This document shows positions 39,235-63,793 of a DNA stretch of 64,000 nucleotides, piece by piece. Under the pieces are notes generated by a model. It was not told the DNA's origin. It did no database searches and worked only from the letters and a program-made list of their open reading frames with translations. Made by a program: the position numbers and the translations under genes. Location: IMG/VR virus record IMGVR_UViG_3300025137_000028, positions 1 to 64,000 of that record. The stretch is one strand, 5' to 3'. Position 1 is the first letter of the stretch; each line of letters starts with the position of its first letter. Origin of the DNA: a virus.

Positions 39235-40845
39235 ATGATTATTATAGGATTAAATAGACATCACAACGGAAATGCCTGTATTTTAGAAGATGGCAAAATC
39301 ACTTATTCAACCGAAGAAGAAAGATTAAATCGTCACAAATACGAGGGCTCACCTTTTTTAAATTTACTAAAAATTAAAGACTTAGCACCACATATAGATG
39401 GTGTAGCTATTGCTGGTTTTGATGGCTTAGTACCATTTGAAAGAAATACAGATATTAATTTCTATGAAATGTTTTTTAACAGATTGTATAAAAATAAATT
39501 TGTAAATAGAACTTATGATAAAGTTCATCATCTAACACATGCTGCTGGTGCTTTTTACAACTCTGGTTTTGAAGAGGCAATATCTGTTGTATTTGATGGT
39601 GACGGCTCTTTTTTTAAAGAAGGTATAGAAAAATATTCTGCTTTTCATTGTAAACATCCTTACGACATAAACAAATTAGAAAAAGAATTTTTTGATTATG
39701 ATGAACCATACAGTAAAACAAATACTCTAAGTTTAGGTAATTACTTCGCTGCTATAGCAGATCATTTTGGAATGAATCCTTTATTTGACGCAGGTAAAGT
39801 TATGGCACTTGCTTCTTATGGCAAAAATATTATAGAAGACTTTGATAGTTTTTTTGATCACAATTATTTTATAGAACCTAGAGTAGTTAGAATGAGTTGT
39901 TTAAATCAAAATCACCCTATGTTTGAGAAAACTAGATTAATGAATGATTTTCAGGCGTCTGCTGATTTAGCATTAACAGTACAAACACTTACTGAAAATA
40001 AAATGATTAAAAAAATACATGATTTAATAGATAAACATAATGTAAAAAATATCTGTTTATCAGGTGGCTATGCTTTAAATTGTGTTGCTAATTTTAAGTT
40101 AAGACAAAGTTTACCTGAAGATATAAACTTGTATGTAGAACCTGTATCACATGACGCTGGTACGGCAATAGGGGCTGCTAAATTATTATACCATGAACTG
40201 AGAAGTATAGAAGGTATAAAAGATGATCCTATTATACCTCAAACAACAATTAAATATGGGTTTCAAAATTATTATCCTAACTCATATGATTTTGCTAGAT
40301 TTAAAAAAACAAAGGTTACAAATAAAGATGTAGCAAAAAAATTATCAGAAAATAAGATAGTTGCTTTGTTTAAGGGTAAATCAGAGTTAGGTCCTAGAGC
40401 ATTAGGCAATAGAAGTATATTGTTTAATCCTAATAATTCAAAAGCAAAAGACACTGTAAACAAAGTTAAAAATAGAGAATCTTATAGACCTTTTGCTGGC
40501 ACAATATTACATGAAGATTGTAAACAGTATTTTGACATGAACGTATTAGATGAGTCGCCATTTATGATGTATGCTGTAAAAGCAAAAAATTATTCTTTAA
40601 AAGGCATTAGACATGTTGACGGAACTTGTAGAATACAAACTTTAAAAAAAGAACAAGACACTGTTTTTTATGACTTAATAAAAGAGTTTAAACAAATAAC
40701 AAATATACCTTGTTTATTAAATACATCATTTAACTTATCAGGTGACCCAATGGTAGAAACGTTAGATGACGCTGTAAAAACATTTGAAAACTCAGAGATA
40801 GATTGTTTATATTTACCTGAGTTATATATATTACTAGAAAAATAA
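39235..40845 (+). CDS. Carbamoyltransferase (NodU/CmcH/TobZ family)
   Basis: 536 residues. N-terminal domain: MIIIGLNRHHNGNACILEDG, STEEERLNRHKYEG, and the metal/carbamoyl-adenylate site HHLTHAAGAFYNSGFEEA with VVFDGDGSFF. C-terminal YrdC-like-linked domain: KGKSELGPRALGNRSILFNP, NRESYRPFAGTILHEDC, NTSFNLSGDPMVETLDDA. The family transfers carbamoyl from carbamoyl phosphate onto hydroxyl groups of sugars or antibiotics via carbamoyl-AMP. Acceptor here unknown; carbamoylated DNA base, sugar or host glycan are possibilities. Behind its own sigma70 promoter; 10 bases before uvsY. Confidence 0.88.
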   Translation: MIIIGLNRHHNGNACILEDGKITYSTEEERLNRHKYEGSPFLNLLKIKDLAPHIDGVAIAGFDGLVPFERNTDINFYEMFFNRLYKNKFVNRTYDKVHHLTHAAGAFYNSGFEEAISVVFDGDGSFFKEGIEKYSAFHCKHPYDINKLEKEFFDYDEPYSKTNTLSLGNYFAAIADHFGMNPLFDAGKVMALASYGKNIIEDFDSFFDHNYFIEPRVVRMSCLNQNHPMFEKTRLMNDFQASADLALTVQTLTENKMIKKIHDLIDKHNVKNICLSGGYALNCVANFKLRQSLPEDINLYVEPVSHDAGTAIGAAKLLYHELRSIEGIKDDPIIPQTTIKYGFQNYYPNSYDFARFKKTKVTNKDVAKKLSENKIVALFKGKSELGPRALGNRSILFNPNNSKAKDTVNKVKNRESYRPFAGTILHEDCKQYFDMNVLDESPFMMYAVKAKNYSLKGIRHVDGTCRIQTLKKEQDTVFYDLIKEFKQITNIPCLLNTSFNLSGDPMVETLDDAVKTFENSEIDCLYLPELYILLEK

Positions 40846-50547: not shown

Positions 50548-51062
50548 TGAAAATACAAGTTGACGATTATAAATTTTACAGACATACAAACTTTATGGAT
50601 AAATCCTATAAAGAAAAGTATATTTCTGATATTGATAAAGTCATATCAGACGGACATGTAGCTAGTAGTAATGTGCCACCTTTACAAACTAAAACAGACT
50701 TATATGATCATGTAAAATTTTTAAATCGTTGGATTGAACTACAAATAAAAATAAAAACAATTATAGAAGAAAATATAGGTAAAGTACAACTCACTGAAAG
50801 TTGGGCAAATATTAGTAGAGAAGATAATAGATTTAGTTTTCATACACACAAAAGAGATATAACTGCTGTATATTATTTAAAAAACAATTATACTAATTAC
50901 GGCACACAAATAGATGATAAAGTAATTATACCTGGTTTAGAAAACTCAGTGTTAATATTTGATGGCAAGATAAATCATAGTATTATTAATATGCCTTTTG
51001 AGTTAGCAGTACACCCACACAACAATAGATATTCAGTAGTATTTGATTATGACACCATATAA
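50547..51062 (+). CDS. 2OG-Fe(II) oxygenase-like protein
   Basis: 171 residues. ISREDNRFSFHTHKRDITAV gives His99, His101 and Asp104, then YYLKNNY; FDGKINHSIIN carries His144 and RYSVVFDY Arg161. The layout parallels PF13759-like oxygenases. It is the third in a row, and its last 14 bases overlap the PLP-type gene. No substrate evident. Confidence 0.7.
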   Translation: MKIQVDDYKFYRHTNFMDKSYKEKYISDIDKVISDGHVASSNVPPLQTKTDLYDHVKFLNRWIELQIKIKTIIEENIGKVQLTESWANISREDNRFSFHTHKRDITAVYYLKNNYTNYGTQIDDKVIIPGLENSVLIFDGKINHSIINMPFELAVHPHNNRYSVVFDYDTI

Positions 51063-51801
51063 TTTTCCTAAATTAGTTATTGAACAACATGATGGCTTTC
51101 ATATAGTAAGAGACGACTTACTAGAAGGTGGTTCTAAAAGAAGATTTGTAGATAGGTATATGAGAGAAGAGATAGAAGAAGGTGCCGAAGAGTTTGTATA
51201 TGGCGGTTGTCCAGCAAACGGTTATGCTCAATTATCTCTTACATTACAAGCGAATCACTATGGTAAAAAAGCTGTTTTTTTCATGGCTAAAAGATCATTA
51301 GATAATTTACACCCTTATCAAAAACAAGCATTAGACTATGGTGCTGACATTAGGTGGGTACCTAATGGTATGTTACAAGTCACAAAAGCAAGAGCCAGAG
51401 AGTATTTTTATGAGGATCCTATAAGACGTAGAATATTACCATTAGGGCTAGAAGAAAAAAGAGTATTTGAAGATATAAGGGACCTTGCCAAAAACATAGA
51501 AATAGTGTATAGTATAAAGATTAGTGAAATTTGGTCAGTAGGATCAAGTGGCACTTTAACAAGAGGATTACAAATGGCGTTTCCAGACAAAGAAGTACAT
51601 TGTGTTTCAGTAGGTCACAAAATGGCTCAACATGAAATAGGAAGAGCAAATTTGTATTTAAGTAAATATAAGTTTACACAAGAAGTTAAAGAAGAAGATA
51701 AACCACCTTTTCCATCTGTGCCGACTTATGACGCAAAAGCATGGTCAATTATGAAAGAACATGCTAAACCAAACGCACTATTTTGGAATGTAGGAAAATG
51801 A
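51049..51801 (+). CDS. PLP-dependent enzyme, ACC deaminase / D-cysteine desulfhydrase-like
   Basis: About 251 residues. VIEQHDGFHIVRDDLLEGGS then KRRF places a Lys (residue 30) after RDDLLEGGS, the pattern (K/R-DD-x-x-x-GG-x-K) that holds the cofactor Lys in fold-type II PLP enzymes of the ACC-deaminase group. SVGSSGTLTRGLQMAF (residues about 163-178) is a phosphate-binding loop. It is shorter than typical members (about 330), so the enzyme may be reduced. The ATG at 51049 is preferred to an upstream TTG. Reaction unknown: deaminase, desulfhydrase or a base-modifying role. Confidence 0.65.
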   Translation: MTPYNFPKLVIEQHDGFHIVRDDLLEGGSKRRFVDRYMREEIEEGAEEFVYGGCPANGYAQLSLTLQANHYGKKAVFFMAKRSLDNLHPYQKQALDYGADIRWVPNGMLQVTKARAREYFYEDPIRRRILPLGLEEKRVFEDIRDLAKNIEIVYSIKISEIWSVGSSGTLTRGLQMAFPDKEVHCVSVGHKMAQHEIGRANLYLSKYKFTQEVKEEDKPPFPSVPTYDAKAWSIMKEHAKPNALFWNVGK

Positions 51802-51983: not shown

Positions 51984-52129
51984 GTAGAGGTGTATTAAAA
52001 ATTATAGCTAAGTTAAGAATGCTATGGGCAGACATAAGAGGTCATCATGGCAAAGTATGGGATTATGAACCTGGTGATTATTATATGGGTAGCCATAAAG
52101 GTCATAAAAAACATCAAAAGAAAAAATGA
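51980..52129 (+). CDS. Short basic protein (49 aa)
   Basis: MSRGVLKIIAKLRMLWADIR, then GHHGKVWDYEPGDYYMGSHK and GHKKHQKKK. The end is His/Lys-rich. It has ATGA overlaps with both neighbours, so it is part of the same transcript. Unknown function. Confidence 0.6.
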   Translation: MSRGVLKIIAKLRMLWADIRGHHGKVWDYEPGDYYMGSHKGHKKHQKKK

Positions 52130-53205
52130 GTGATATATTACAAAACACACACGATACAATAAAAGACAAAGGCTTTCCTTATTATCCTAAAGATAAGAAA
52201 TGGCGAGACGACAAGTATAATCTTTTAATGGCATTTAAAAGAGATACTATGATAGATAGAAAAACTAAAGTCATAGGTCAATCTGCTCATGGTTTAAATC
52301 TCGCATGGTCTTATATGGAACATGCTTGGGGTATTAAGTGTGGTAAAATGAAGACACCTATGGAAGTTTGGGATGATGAAGAACATCTTAAAAAAGGTAT
52401 AAACAAAATTTTAACAGGCACATTTTTTACACAAAAGAAACCACACGAAATAACAGACTCAGATATGAGATCAATGTTAAGAAGATACTCAGGCACACAA
52501 ATGGTTTCTAATTTTAGACCTACGGCTGCCGCTGCCTTATATGATGTATTTGTAGAAAAAGATAGTCCTTTAGAAGGCACAACGGCAGGTTTAGTATGGG
52601 ATCCTAGTATGGGTTATGGTGGTAGATTATTAGGGGCAATTGCTGCTGGTGTTAATTACATAGGCACAGATCCTTGTATACCGACATACGATGGTTTACA
52701 AAACATATTAATGGATTATGGTCATACACACAAACAATATTCATTACTAAGACAAGGTAGTGAAACGTATATACCTGAAGAAAATAGTTTAGACTTTGTA
52801 TTTACAAGTCCACCTTACTTTGGTTGGGAAGCATATGGTGATGAGCCAGAACAATCTAGTATTAAGTTTAATACAAGTGATATGTGGAAAGAACACTTTT
52901 TAAAGAAGACAATTGCTAATGCTTATAAAGGTTTAAAACCAGGTAAACATTTAGCACTTAATGTTGCTAATACAAAACAGTATAAAACGTTTGAAGAGGA
53001 TACTGTACAATTAGCCATTGATTGTGGTTTTGAACATACTGATACTTGGTGGTTGTCATTATCTACACAACAAGGTGGATCAGAAACATCAACATTAGAT
53101 GGTGAAATAACTGAAAAGAAACAAACACAAAGATATATGGGCAAGTTTGAAAGACCGAATCAATCAGGTAGAAAGTTTGAACCTACGTTTATATTTACAA
53201 AATGA
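52126..53205 (+). CDS. DNA methyltransferase (N4-cytosine or N6-adenine type)
   Basis: 359 residues. AdoMet motif I: VWDPSMGYGGRLLGA (from Asp159); catalytic motif IV: FTSPPYFGWE (226-235, S-P-P-Y). The order motif I then IV and the S-P-P-Y signature fit N4/N6 methylases of the beta/gamma kind. No restriction partner is next to it, so it is an orphan methyltransferase protecting phage DNA or regulating it. The target recognition part would be residues about 240-300. Confidence 0.8.
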   Translation: MSDILQNTHDTIKDKGFPYYPKDKKWRDDKYNLLMAFKRDTMIDRKTKVIGQSAHGLNLAWSYMEHAWGIKCGKMKTPMEVWDDEEHLKKGINKILTGTFFTQKKPHEITDSDMRSMLRRYSGTQMVSNFRPTAAAALYDVFVEKDSPLEGTTAGLVWDPSMGYGGRLLGAIAAGVNYIGTDPCIPTYDGLQNILMDYGHTHKQYSLLRQGSETYIPEENSLDFVFTSPPYFGWEAYGDEPEQSSIKFNTSDMWKEHFLKKTIANAYKGLKPGKHLALNVANTKQYKTFEEDTVQLAIDCGFEHTDTWWLSLSTQQGGSETSTLDGEITEKKQTQRYMGKFERPNQSGRKFEPTFIFTK

Positions 53206-58717: not shown

Positions 58718-60007
58718 ATGATTAGTTTCAAGCAGTATTTAAAAGACGAAAAATTTGATAGACTTTCTGAGTTAGAAGAAGGATTATTCAGTGGTTTTAT
58801 CTCTTTTATAAGAAGTGCTTTTAACAAAGTTGTTAATGCTTTTAAGTCAGCATTTAGAGCCATTGCTTCTAAACTAGGTTTTGGGCAAACTATATCTATG
58901 AAAATAAGTACAGGATTAACTGAAGCAAATGAGACAGGACAAGATAGTAAATCCAGACTAGGTTACTATTCAGAATATGTTTGTGGTGTTGAATTAGCAA
59001 AACTTATTGAAAGTAGAGACTTAAAATTACCTAGTTCTTCAACAAGTAATTCACTTAATAAAGTTAGACAAAATTTTGTAAATACTAAACTAAAAACTTT
59101 ATCTAACTTTAAATCATTAAGTTCAGAAATTAAAAGAATGGAAGACGCTGGTAGGGCGATGGCAGATAAGATATTCTCTGACATGTTAACTGAAACAGCA
59201 GATTTAAAAGTAACACAATTTGATATTACTTTAACAGGTGATAGTTTAAAAGGTACTGGTAAAGCAGACATAGTATTAAGAGCTAGAAAAAAATCTAAGA
59301 ACGAGATAGTGGCAGAAATCGCTGCTTCTTTAAAAGCATACAGAGGTGCTTCAATCAATCTAGCAAACTCAACATTAATTAGTTTCTTTGCTTCACTTAC
59401 AGGTGATAAACAGTTTACTTCAAAAGCATTAGAGAAGTCTCAAACTATTATATTTGACAGTATGGTAAAAGCTGCTGTATCAGATGGCATGAGTAAAGCA
59501 GAAGCGATAGAGTTTCTAGCAAAGAAAACTTTAAATGCTACAGAGAAAAAGAAATTTAAAAAATATAAAGACTTTGGTCGTAAAGTTTCTAAAGAATCAC
59601 AAATCAATACTGCTAAAATAATAGTAGATGAATTTAATAAGATATACAAATCAAGTAAAGCAAAAATTAATACTAACTTAATTAAACTGATAGGTATGGA
59701 CGGCGAAGATGATTTTTATGCTGCTATAGGCGAGGGTAAAAAGATGAGAGTTATATCATCTAAACAAAGTCCTGACATGAAAAAGTTTGTAAAAGACATT
59801 AGAAATAAAAATTTAAATGTAACAATGGTACCAAAACCTGGTTCTGCTGGCAGAGCTAGTGTATCAGTTACATTATCAATAGGTACAGAAATACTTACAA
59901 CATCATCATTAACTATGACCGATACAGGCATAGGTAGTGCTGGTATGACTAAATCAAAAGGTGCGATAAAAACTAACTTTTGGTTTAACTTTAATGACAT
60001 TGCCTAA
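58718..60007 (+). CDS. Unrecognised late protein (429 aa)
   Basis: MISFKQYLKDEKFDRLSELE at the start is a tag-like helix used by several marine T4-like virion proteins, followed by an amphipathic segment (FSGFISFIRSAFNKVVNAFK). The middle has DIVLRARKKSKNEIVAEIAA then SLKAYRGAS (Asp184, Glu200, Lys206), reminiscent of D...E...K nuclease spacing but with atypical gaps. The rest (MRVISSKQSP, SVSVTLSIGTEI) is beta-rich. Late transcription suggests a packaged or assembly protein; no family is recognised. Confidence 0.6.
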   Translation: MISFKQYLKDEKFDRLSELEEGLFSGFISFIRSAFNKVVNAFKSAFRAIASKLGFGQTISMKISTGLTEANETGQDSKSRLGYYSEYVCGVELAKLIESRDLKLPSSSTSNSLNKVRQNFVNTKLKTLSNFKSLSSEIKRMEDAGRAMADKIFSDMLTETADLKVTQFDITLTGDSLKGTGKADIVLRARKKSKNEIVAEIAASLKAYRGASINLANSTLISFFASLTGDKQFTSKALEKSQTIIFDSMVKAAVSDGMSKAEAIEFLAKKTLNATEKKKFKKYKDFGRKVSKESQINTAKIIVDEFNKIYKSSKAKINTNLIKLIGMDGEDDFYAAIGEGKKMRVISSKQSPDMKKFVKDIRNKNLNVTMVPKPGSAGRASVSVTLSIGTEILTTSSLTMTDTGIGSAGMTKSKGAIKTNFWFNFNDIA

Positions 60008-60050: not shown

Positions 60051-60317
60051 ATGAAATACAATGAAGATAAAATCTTAAAAGAGATAGACGAATATATTAA
60101 ATCTACTTATGGTCAGCATTACTCAAAAGGTAAAGATGGCTTTCAAGTTTTAGATTTACTTAAAACTCTCAACGTAGGACAAGATTTTTGTCATGCTAAC
60201 GCAATTAAATATTTGTGTAGGTATGGTAAGAAGAACGGCCATAATAGAGCTGACTTATTAAAAGCAGTTCATTATGTAATATTATTATTAAATTATGATA
60301 AGGAGAAGGTGAAATGA
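60051..60317 (+). CDS. DUF3310-type protein (88 aa)
   Basis: GFQVLDLLKTLNVGQDFCHA then NAIKYLCRYGKKNGHNRADL and LKAVHYVILLLNYDKEK. The N-A-I-K-Y-L-x-R-Y-G-K-K...D-L-x-K-A signature is typical for DUF3310, a small protein family in phages, sometimes linked to nucleotide metabolism. The stop overlaps the clamp gene (ATGA), whose start follows GGAGAAGGTGAA. Confidence 0.8.
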   Translation: MKYNEDKILKEIDEYIKSTYGQHYSKGKDGFQVLDLLKTLNVGQDFCHANAIKYLCRYGKKNGHNRADLLKAVHYVILLLNYDKEKVK

Positions 60318-60973
60318 ACATAAGCACAGATACAATTGCTGTACTGAAAAATTTTTCAGACATTAATCAAAACATATTGATTAAACCAGGTAATGTGGTA
60401 CAGACAATTTCTACAATGAAGAATATTTTAGCAGAGGCTGAAATAACAGAAAAATTTGATAGTGAGTTTGCTATCTATGATTTACCTGAATTTTTAAGAT
60501 CAGTTGAATTATTTGATAAACCACAACTTAAATTTAATGGCGAATCAAATGTTAAAATTGAGAGTGGCGCTCAATCAGTAAAATACTTTTTTGCTGATAA
60601 ATCAGTTATAGTTGCTCCTAAGAAAAGCATTAATATGCCTGATAAACATGTTACATTTACTTTGAAAAAAGATGTGTTTACTCAGTTAATGAAAGGTGCT
60701 ACAACACTTAACTTACCAGACATTGCTGTTAAAGGTGATGGTAGTAAGATTACATTAGTCGCTACTGATAAGAAAAACAAATCATCAAACGATTATTCAT
60801 TAGTTATAGGTGAAACAGATAAAGAATTTTCTGCTTTCTTTAAAACAGAAAACTTTAAACAAGTTGTTGATGATTATGATGTAGCTATTTCTAAACAAAA
60901 AATATCACATTTTGTTAATAGAAATAAATCAATACAATATTGGATTGCTTTAGAACCTGATTCAGAGTTTTAA
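60314..60973 (+). CDS. 45: Sliding clamp gp45
   Basis: 219 residues (T4 228). MNISTDTIAVLKNFSDINQN then ILIKPGNVVQTISTMKNILA is the typical clamp start, followed by FAIYDLPEFLRSVELFDKPQ and KKDVFTQLMKGATTLNLPDI; it ends with VNRNKSIQYWIALEPDSEF. The trimer is a processivity factor for the polymerase and activates late transcription together with gp55. Followed by an oxygenase gene and then gp44. Confidence 0.93.
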   Translation: MNISTDTIAVLKNFSDINQNILIKPGNVVQTISTMKNILAEAEITEKFDSEFAIYDLPEFLRSVELFDKPQLKFNGESNVKIESGAQSVKYFFADKSVIVAPKKSINMPDKHVTFTLKKDVFTQLMKGATTLNLPDIAVKGDGSKITLVATDKKNKSSNDYSLVIGETDKEFSAFFKTENFKQVVDDYDVAISKQKISHFVNRNKSIQYWIALEPDSEF

Positions 60974-60976
60974 ATT

Positions 60977-61495
60977 ATGAGAGTTGATTTATTTTCAACT
61001 CCCATATTGATAGATGACTTTGATATTACTAAGTTAAAATTTGTAGAAGAAGGTCAGCAAACCCAATTTGGCAGTGAAATAAAAACCAGTCATGGTTTTA
61101 CTAACATTATAGAAAAAGATAGTTTAGATTATTTCTACAATAAGATAGTAAGTAATTTAGATCAAGTTATTTCCCAATCATATCATGTTAAAGCAGATAA
61201 TATATGGCGTAACTACTATAAAGAAGGTGACTGGCAAGAAAAACACACCCATATAGGTTCTGACTTTTCATTTATAATTTATGATAGTGTAAAGTCTAAT
61301 ACTTGGTTTGTTCACCCAGCACACTATTTAATACAAGAAAAATATAAAGATAAAAAACTATTTGATACAGAGGTAAAACCTCATATCAATTATGGTCAGA
61401 TTTGTATTTTTCCTAGTTACTTAGAGCATTATGTGTCTAAAGCTGAAAGTCAATCAACAACTATATCAGGTAATTTAAGTATAGAAATAAAATGA
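60977..61495 (+). CDS. 2OG-Fe(II) oxygenase-like protein (PF13759 type)
   Basis: 172 residues. RVDLFSTPILIDDF opens like other members; DNIWRNYYKEGDWQEKHTHI then GSDFSFIIYD provides His90, His92 and Asp96; IFPSYLEHYVSKAESQSTTI gives His151, then SGNLSIEIK. It is the eighth oxygenase-like gene of the window and sits between clamp and glycosyltransferase. Arg ligand is absent at the usual spot (T-T-I-S-G-N), so activity is uncertain. Confidence 0.75.
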   Translation: MRVDLFSTPILIDDFDITKLKFVEEGQQTQFGSEIKTSHGFTNIIEKDSLDYFYNKIVSNLDQVISQSYHVKADNIWRNYYKEGDWQEKHTHIGSDFSFIIYDSVKSNTWFVHPAHYLIQEKYKDKKLFDTEVKPHINYGQICIFPSYLEHYVSKAESQSTTISGNLSIEIK

Positions 61496-62829
61496 GTTTA
61501 TACGATTTTGATAACCCTACAGCAAAGACTAAAAGAATATTAGTCTATCCTAATATTACTTTTGCTAAAGATTTATCTAAAGATAGTTATATTCAAGTAA
61601 TTAAAAAACACATAACATTGTTAAATGAAATAAGAGACGATCTCTGGTTTTATTTAATATTACCTAAAGAGGTGCCAGAGTTAGCATTTGATAATGTTAC
61701 ACAATTGTTTTTAGATTTGCCTACTCACCCTCCTACTATGAGGGCACATTTTGATTCACAAGCTATTAAAAAACTTGTACCTAAAAACATAGATATAGAC
61801 TTGGTCATGTCACATCTACCAGAACATACCTATGACTTAAAAAATGTTTTGTATAATGTAACTAATCATGTACCTAAATTTTTTGGTTACTGTCATTGGT
61901 TTGATTTAAAAGCAGTAGCAAACTGGCATATGAATAGTTTTAAAAAGAATATTGTAGGTGTTTTAGAAATGGATAGATGTTATTTAAATACAGAGAGTCA
62001 AAAGAAATTAGTTATTGAAGAAGCAAAAGAAACTTTTAGTGACAGAGTAATATGGGATTTAGATAAAAAATTAACAGTTCAACATTTAGGTGTAGATGAA
62101 AAAGATATTGTAAAAGATATAAAAAGAGTAGAAGAAAAAATTATAGTATTCAATCATAGACCAGACACATACAAACATTACAAAGAATTTTTAAAAGTAT
62201 GTGATAAACTATATGAACAAAGACAAGATTTTAAAGTGTGGGTACCTTTGGCAAGTAAAGCAGATAGAGAATATATAACAACTGAAAGTGGTGATAAAGA
62301 TTTTTATTATAAAAAACTACAAGATTGTTACATAGGTTATTCACCTAAACAATCTTATGGTGGGTGGTCTGTTGCGACAACAGATGGTATGATGAATGGT
62401 ATACCTTATTTAATGTATGACGCTGACTATTACAGAGAGTTATGGGATAAGGGTGTCTTTGTAAAAAATGATGATGAATTATTAGAAAAATTAAACTTCT
62501 ATTTAGATAATGAATATAATAGAAATGTTTTAGCAGATGAAAGTTTACAACACATAAGATATAGATTAATTTTTAAAGACGAAGTAAAACAAATGAGTGA
62601 TTACATAGATGAATTACATGATACTTTACCTAAGGTAAAAACCTCAGAAAAGATAAAAGAGATTATAAGTTGGATACAAAAAGAAAAACGTGTATCTAAA
62701 AGTGAAATTATGAAGAGATTAGGTTGGGGAGTAGGTATTAAGTGGACACAATATCGTGCCACACTATTGACTCACCCTAACATTTATGATATACTATCAA
62801 AAGATCCTGTATATTGTTGGATCGATTAA
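61492..62829 (+). CDS. Glycosyltransferase (GT-B-like) with C-terminal DNA-binding-like tail
   Basis: 445 residues. KRILVYPNITFAKDLSKDSY, then a GT-B-like C-terminal half: IIVFNHRPDTYKHYKEFLKV, VWVPLA, YIGYSPKQSYGGWSVATTDG and MMNGIPYLMYDADYYRELWD (the typical donor-binding 'E/D-x-x-x-x-G' region is around TTDG). Residues about 383-445 (KEIISWIQKEKRVSKSEIMK, RLGWGVGIKWTQYRATLLTH) look like a winged-helix domain, unusual for a glycosyltransferase. Lying in the replication cluster, it could glycosylate DNA bases, but a host glycan or protein is also possible. Confidence 0.72.
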   Translation: MSLYDFDNPTAKTKRILVYPNITFAKDLSKDSYIQVIKKHITLLNEIRDDLWFYLILPKEVPELAFDNVTQLFLDLPTHPPTMRAHFDSQAIKKLVPKNIDIDLVMSHLPEHTYDLKNVLYNVTNHVPKFFGYCHWFDLKAVANWHMNSFKKNIVGVLEMDRCYLNTESQKKLVIEEAKETFSDRVIWDLDKKLTVQHLGVDEKDIVKDIKRVEEKIIVFNHRPDTYKHYKEFLKVCDKLYEQRQDFKVWVPLASKADREYITTESGDKDFYYKKLQDCYIGYSPKQSYGGWSVATTDGMMNGIPYLMYDADYYRELWDKGVFVKNDDELLEKLNFYLDNEYNRNVLADESLQHIRYRLIFKDEVKQMSDYIDELHDTLPKVKTSEKIKEIISWIQKEKRVSKSEIMKRLGWGVGIKWTQYRATLLTHPNIYDILSKDPVYCWID

Positions 62830-62848: not shown

Positions 62849-63793
62849 ATGTCAGATTTTTTATGGGTTGAAAAGTATCGACCTAAAAAAATTAGTGATT
62901 GTATTCTTACACAAGAACTGAAAGATACATTTACAAAATTTTTAGAACAAAAAGAAATACCTAATTTACTATTATCAGGTACAGCAGGTACAGGTAAAAC
63001 TACTGTTGCTCGTGCTTTATGTGAAGAGTTAGGTACAGATTACATTATCATTAATGGTTCAGATGAAGGTAGACAGATTGATACACTTAGAAGTAAGATC
63101 AAAAACTTTGCCGCCACTGTATCACTTACCGAAGACGCCAATCATAAAGTTGTAATTATAGACGAGGCAGATTACATGAATGCTGACAGTGTTCAACCTG
63201 CTTTAAGAAACTTTATAGAAACATTTTATAATAACTGTAGATTTATATTTACTTGTAATTATAAGAACAAAATTATACCAGCCTTACATAGTCGTTGTAC
63301 AGTTATTGATTTTAAAATTGTAAATGGTCAAAGAGTTAAAACTGCTACTGCCTTTCTTAAAAGACTAGAGGGTATTCTAAATGATGAACAAGTAGGTTTT
63401 GATAAGAAAGTATTAGCAGAGTTAATACAAAAATATTATCCTGACTTTAGAAGAACAATAAACGAGTTACAAAGATATGCTGTAAGAGGTAAGATAGACA
63501 GTGGTATTTTGTTTAGTTTATCTGAGGTAAATCATAAAGAGTTAATGCTGACTTTAAAAGAAAAACGTTTTAATGATATGAGAAAATGGGTTGTACAAAA
63601 CTTAGACAAAGAACCATCACATTTATTTAGAACCATTTATGATGTATTGTATAAAGAATTAGATCCTAAGGCAGTACCACAAGCAATATTAATTATTGCT
63701 GGCTATCAATATAAAGCTGCCTTTGTTGCTGACCAAGAGATTAATATGGTCGCATGTTTAACTGAAATAATGGCGAGTTGTAAGTTTAGGTAA
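62849..63793 (+). CDS. 44: Clamp loader large subunit gp44
   Basis: 314 residues (T4 319). WVEKYRPKKISDCIL at the N-terminus, Walker A GTAGTGKT (44-51), Walker B VVIIDEAD (101-108), sensor FTCNYKNKI, and SRC (148-150) with the arginine finger. ATPase that opens and loads gp45. AAAGGAGTTTATATT is its ribosome-binding site. Confidence 0.96.
   Translation: MSDFLWVEKYRPKKISDCILTQELKDTFTKFLEQKEIPNLLLSGTAGTGKTTVARALCEELGTDYIIINGSDEGRQIDTLRSKIKNFAATVSLTEDANHKVVIIDEADYMNADSVQPALRNFIETFYNNCRFIFTCNYKNKIIPALHSRCTVIDFKIVNGQRVKTATAFLKRLEGILNDEQVGFDKKVLAELIQKYYPDFRRTINELQRYAVRGKIDSGILFSLSEVNHKELMLTLKEKRFNDMRKWVVQNLDKEPSHLFRTIYDVLYKELDPKAVPQAILIIAGYQYKAAFVADQEINMVACLTEIMASCKFR

Follow-up and report, generated by a model that had tools for sequence, protein, structure and literature searches.

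Why should a glycosyltransferase gene be inserted among the replication genes of a marine phage, and what does its product decorate with sugar? The gene in question (hereafter GT; positions 61492-62829, plus strand) was found in a stretch of 64,000 nucleotides, the window, which is part of a 73.9 kb record of an incomplete virus genome from the ocean. Since the window encodes a clamp loader that shares 82% identity with the one in Pelagibacter phage Mosig, the source is, judging from sequence, most likely a T4-like phage infecting SAR11 bacteria. The reading frame begins with ATG and encodes 445 amino acids, the C-terminal part of which contains KEIISWIQKEKRVSKSEIMKRLGWGVGIKWTQYR. Against its nearest relatives dN/dS is about 0.15, which means purifying selection, and at least 431 loci in IMG/VR carry relatives, with identities as low as 40%; thus, GT is not a chance open reading frame. 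It should be kept in mind that these relatives are nearly all metagenomic fragments, kin by descent, and were retrieved via the same genes that are compared here. Homologues are also carried by contigs in bacterial MAGs of Saprospiraceae and Acidiferrobacteraceae (L086 and L087), which are probably phage contigs binned together with bacteria. A tblastn search of the INPHARED phage isolates with GT at an E-value of 0.01 gave no match, and a search of the same collection with a divergent family member gave weak matches to other glycosyltransferases and nothing more. In Pfam, Glycos_transf_1 was matched at an E-value of 4e-5, which is sub-threshold, as are the other glycosyltransferase matches. 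PHROGs returned no match, PADLOC a single weak and partial one and nothing else, and sequence searches of the PDB with two queries (A1 and A2) no significant match.

What kind of enzyme is GT? An AlphaFold2 model of the protein (pLDDT 82, built on a 19-row alignment) has two Rossmann-like domains, that is, a predicted GT-B fold. Residues 12-381 of this model match GT4-type enzymes with Foldseek E-values as low as 1e-13, and the best structural match is BshA, with a Z of 25.3 across 329 residues. In the predicted GT4-like catalytic domain (residues about 12-380; positions 61525-62631, plus strand), H135 and R223 are invariant in the alignment, K228 is kept in at least 97% of the sequences, and D298 is conserved. 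We take R223 and K228 to be the residues that bind the diphosphate of the donor, and H135 to be the histidine of the N-terminal domain, on the basis of GT4 motif alignment, made without superposition; the conservation of these four residues fits an active enzyme. Among solved folds, GT4 enzymes of the BshA, MshA and TarM types come nearest to GT, with Z values of 23-25 across some 330 residues, but they act on small-molecule or cell-wall acceptors and have no winged helix, and in GT the first glutamate of the GT4 motif EX7E is not conserved, the equivalent positions being, by eye, G290 and D298. Therefore, we do not file GT as a member of GT4. The alpha- and beta-glucosyltransferases of T4 are not among the best 50 structure matches listed for GT, while kinship with them is still conceivable.

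The first-pass annotation had seen in the last 60 or so residues a small DNA-binding domain fused to a GT-B enzyme, and had proposed structure prediction of the C-terminus as a check. In the full model the tail (residues about 380-445; positions 62629-62826, plus strand) takes the order H-E-H-H-E-E with a pLDDT of about 90, and when it is modelled alone, the same order is obtained with a pLDDT of 78. Its structural neighbours are nearly all winged helices, including Z-alpha, F-112 of SSV1, TFIIE, Rpa2, MarR-type regulators and the WHB domain of cullin. As the full and the isolated predictions and the structure matches agree on a winged helix, the earlier observation is confirmed at the level of prediction. 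Best Z values reach only 7-8 with the predicted models, because the domain is small (about 60 residues). Although Z-alpha ranks at the top, we rejected membership in that group; its Z is tied with those of many other winged helices, and inspection by eye indicates that the contact residues of Z-alpha are not conserved. Several chains of ribosomal protein S25 are also among the matches. W412, G413, I416, Y421 and R422 are conserved, the tail being marked by conserved lysine, tyrosine and arginine residues, and its mean net charge is +4.4 while that of the enzyme domain is -8.5. Some of the winged helices matched bind proteins instead of DNA, and domains of this kind can also bind RNA.

In the window, the insertion site is flanked on the left by gp45, the sliding clamp (60314-60973), and on the right by gp44, the clamp loader (62849-63793), both on the plus strand. 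A location between these two had already been noted; more exactly, the order is gp45, a 2OG-Fe(II) oxygenase (60977-61495, plus strand, overlapping the start of GT by 4 bases), GT and gp44. Mosig, a cultured relative, has gp45 followed at once by gp44 with no insert, and neither Mosig nor HTVC008M encodes GT. GT sits between gp45 and gp44 in the clade of the window; in other clades its neighbours are gp43 and uvsX, gp46 and a VWA gene, or a PLP-fold enzyme and a methyltransferase, and further places occur. The GT gene is therefore a mobile insert with several insertion sites, the gap that separates clamp from clamp loader among them. The 2OG oxygenase is directly upstream of GT in family members that are almost identical to the window and in no others, and is not a conserved partner for this reason; isolates without GT also encode several such oxygenases. 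Accordingly, a route made of oxygenase and GT was rejected, the suggestion that oxygenases take part in a modification route gained no support, and the one beside GT probably stands outside it. About eight 2OG-Fe(II) oxygenase-like genes are present in 74 kb (window 26989, 41284, 46327, 49328, 49948 and 60977; L031 4511 and 10606). Two other genes of this region may be mentioned. A 429-amino-acid protein encoded at 58718-60007 of the window is conserved in part of its clade and has no convincing match in Pfam or PHROGs, and an ATP-grasp gene (RimK or glutathione-synthetase-like) between regA and gp43 (L031:5925-7421, record position about 65924-67420) is conserved in a large part of the clade and also in Mosig.

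What accompanies GT when it moves? The gene directly upstream of it is DruA/DUF4338 at 29 loci, a GIY-YIG/ParB-like gene at 19 and a GmrSD_N-HNH gene at 13, and further genes at this position encode other ParB-like proteins and an N4/N6 methyltransferase. The upstream gene often overlaps GT by a four-base stop-start. When GT proteins were merged at 90% identity, 40 clusters had enough upstream DNA, and 30 of these have DruA no farther than 4.5 kb upstream. DUF4338 is described as a GNAT-type acetyltransferase domain (PMC10853773). DruA corresponds to phrog_19197, and a homologue in one cyanophage bears the annotation Mom. These GNAT proteins are the favoured upstream neighbour of the GT family, yet they are proteins distinct from GT; Mosig and cultured cyanophages have DruA with neither GT nor g330, as we call a family that lacks annotation and whose members have about 330 residues. 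DruA, g330 and TAGT, to be described below, are all absent from the 73.9 kb of the source phage.

A search seeded with DruA brought out two interchangeable TRANSFERASES: the position after DruA holds either GT or g330. Among 80 loci obtained in this way, 27 have GT, 44 have g330, 9 have neither, and none has both (Fisher p about 6e-14, ignoring shared ancestry and the contigs that had previously been in the set). Likewise, 15 of 34 larger records contain GT and 14 contain g330, again with no case of both. The same alternation is met in a second context. In the window, a PLP-fold (PALP-like) enzyme (51043-51801, plus strand) and an N4/N6-type DNA methyltransferase (52126-53205, plus strand) lie side by side and are candidate partners, while in relatives GT or g330 is found between them. 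The PLP-fold enzyme of the window itself has no match in Pfam; in Erythrobacter phage R6L, its homologue forms one protein with an N4/N6 methyltransferase, and this fusion matches both PALP and N6_N4_Mtase (window 51043-51801; L222 2816-5236). In a search seeded with the PLP-fold enzyme, g330 was found between enzyme and methyltransferase in about a dozen loci, and GT fills the gap in L012-L014 and L043. L230, L240 and L251 have neither in the gap and carry GT between gp45 and gp44 instead, which is the layout of the window (PLP-fold enzyme at 51043, methyltransferase at 52126, GT at 61492). This set comprises 3 loci with GT, 13 with g330 and none with both, numbers too few by themselves to prove exclusion (p 0.25). 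In L012, L014 and L043 the order is PLP-fold enzyme, GT, methyltransferase, carbamoyltransferase (in two frames) and nucleotidyltransferase, so that relatives support the earlier proposal, which linked GT with the PLP-type enzyme, with methyltransferases such as the one at 52126 and with a carbamoyltransferase; the carbamoyltransferase of the window (39235-40845, plus strand) is far from GT and of a kind common in cyanophages. As for g330 (L154:7110-8093, L157:4522-5514 and L190:8459-9442), motif resemblance pointed to T4 beta-GT, and this assignment was rejected: in pairwise profile comparisons the E-values were 0.05-0.12 for beta-GT and 0.008-0.026 for alpha-GT, and the glycosyltransferase match in Pfam is sub-threshold. 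Because these profile signals are weak, we call g330 GT-like only.

Another neighbour is TAGT (TET-associated glycosyltransferase, PF20691), a known family of DNA hypermodification, whose members in T2 and T6 put a further glucose on a base that carries one already (PMC13216743). In L038-L041, TAGT lies two genes downstream of GT, and in compact operons of DruA, nucleotidyltransferase, GT and TAGT it follows GT directly. The clearest cassette found is the four-gene operon at L221:3837-7557 (record G049). TAGT likewise follows g330. In the clade of the window, record G002 has TAGT next to thyX, the gene lying about 250 bases downstream of thyX (L219:9697-11356). GT shares cassettes with TAGT, a beta-glucosyl-HMC-alpha-glucosyltransferase that presumably acts later, whereas the two are unrelated in sequence; TAGT has a GT-A fold (PMC13216743), GT a predicted GT-B fold and no PF20691 match in Pfam. 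With the alpha- and beta-GT of T4 (PF11440 and PF09198), GT has in common the GT-B fold (in GT a predicted one), a setting of replication and recombination genes, and the existence of alternative families for the first sugar. The interval from gp43 to uvsX contains gene 42, beta-gt and the nuclease gene segA in T4, and DruA, a nuclease gene and GT in many relatives, in which GT thus occupies the same slot as beta-gt. Moreover, T4 alpha-GT co-purifies with gp45 (PMC13216743), and this gives a precedent for a DNA glycosyltransferase working with the clamp. GT differs from the T4 enzymes in its fused winged helix and in that no gene 42-type hydroxymethylase was found alongside, and it has no Pfam match to either family (hhalign E-values of 0.8 and 0.32).

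On what chemical handle could the sugar be placed? The search covered viral records, mostly fragments, that carry GT or g330, and in these there is no hydroxymethylase of the thymidylate synthase family (dCMP hydroxymethylase, PF00303) and no C5-cytosine methyltransferase (PF00145); Mosig and HTVC008M also have no enzyme of the thymidylate synthase family and no C5-methyltransferase. Therefore, neither the T-even route nor a route based on 5-methylcytosine is supported, in line with what the first-pass annotation had said about the 5mC/TET route. The 5mC/TET and 5-carboxymethylcytosine routes are multi-gene hypermodification systems of marine or phage DNA (PMC12783734), and differ in starting with an enzyme of the C5-methyltransferase family, which is absent from the GT-bearing records checked. 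Candidates for preparing the handle are, for most relatives, DruA and, for the clade of the window, the PLP-fold enzyme with its methyltransferase.

Because relatives keep GT beside known or suspected DNA-modifying genes, GT probably decorates the phage's own DNA with sugar, and the early suspicion of a connection with DNA modification has gained ground, as the cassettes with GT also contain genes for TAGT, DruA, an N4/N6 methyltransferase and a PLP-fold enzyme. We consider it likely that GT is a DNA glycosyltransferase which adds the first sugar to phage DNA, on a handle that comes from neither dCMP hydroxymethylase nor 5mC oxidation. We infer the acceptor and the order of steps from gene context, and they would be as follows. 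A handle enzyme would prepare the base, namely the GNAT-type DruA protein in most relatives or the PLP-fold enzyme with the N4/N6-type methyltransferase in the clade of the window. GT, as a soluble GT-B enzyme, would then move a sugar from a nucleotide-sugar onto the modified bases, with its winged helix possibly holding the DNA during the transfer; GT or, alternatively, g330 would thus provide the first sugar within an exchangeable hypermodification cassette. In some genomes the nucleotidyltransferase may supply the sugar donor, and in some TAGT may add a second sugar. The probable benefit, and so the presumed purpose, would be resistance to nucleases.

It might be possible to explain GT in other ways. 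Most GT4-type phage glycosyltransferases act on a surface glycan or a virion protein, and enzymes that modify surfaces often have GT4-like folds; since the best structural matches of GT are enzymes of the BshA, TarM, WaaG and PglA types, GT could glycosylate a virion protein or a glycan on the host surface, such as lipopolysaccharide or capsule, with the winged helix as a module for protein interaction or regulation. However, GT is found in replication and recombination clusters with DruA, methyltransferases, nucleases and TAGT, not with tail or surface genes, it excludes g330 in the same DNA-modification slots, and its tail is basic on an acidic enzyme. We regard this explanation as unlikely. 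With an acceptor of another kind, either a small nucleotide or an RNA such as tRNA or mRNA, the neighbourhood would be no more than a hotspot of accessory genes. The Z-alpha fold binds Z-DNA or Z-RNA, and its place at the top of the winged-helix matches, as well as the S25 chains, could be read in this direction, but a hotspot predicts neither the strict alternation of GT and g330 in two contexts nor the linkage to TAGT, and we think such an acceptor very improbable.

Bacterial enzymes of the GmrSD type cut glycosylated DNA, so that a phage copy beside GT is odd; GmrSD_N-HNH proteins whose genes overlap GT are encoded at L050:2179-3669 and L047:6037-7500. Could GT and the adjacent GmrSD-HNH or GIY-YIG/ParB-like nuclease form a selfish pair that tells self from non-self, in which GT marks the DNA of the phage so that the nuclease hits competitors only? 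The frequency of such genes upstream of GT (the 13 and 19 loci counted above, besides other ParB-like ones), often with a stop-start overlap, speaks for it, and so does T4, in which b-gt has segA as its neighbour and a-gt has mobB. On the other hand, many GT loci, including those in the clade of the window, have no adjacent nuclease of this kind, the same nuclease families also adjoin g330, and homing nucleases insert near replication genes in any case. Such a pair seems improbable to us, and since it is compatible with glycosylation of DNA, it would add a purpose to that mechanism and would not replace it.

If GT indeed puts the first sugar on DNA, what does it mean for phages in the ocean? 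In a survey in 2026, 288 of 753 phage genomes with glycosyltransferases have TAGT without alpha- or beta-GT, and the authors predict unknown transferases (PMC13216743). GT and g330 are concrete candidates for these, in widespread ocean phages, and the candidate handle genes linked to them differ in kind from those of T4. It is a tentative picture, possible rather than probable in our eyes, that abundant uncultured T4-like marine phages glycosylate their DNA in a modular way, with DruA or the PLP-fold enzyme and N4/N6 methyltransferase for the handle and GT or g330 for the first sugar, using neither a pool of hydroxymethylated nucleotides nor 5mC oxidation; GT and g330 would then be the missing first-sugar enzymes of phages having TAGT only. 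The cassette model can be tested directly, since g330 is present in one isolate, HTVC008M (NC_020484, 84548-85552), which also has DruA. If it is true, DruA/DUF4338 would gain a possible role in base modification, a large unannotated family would be explained, and new enzymes for labelling DNA would become available.
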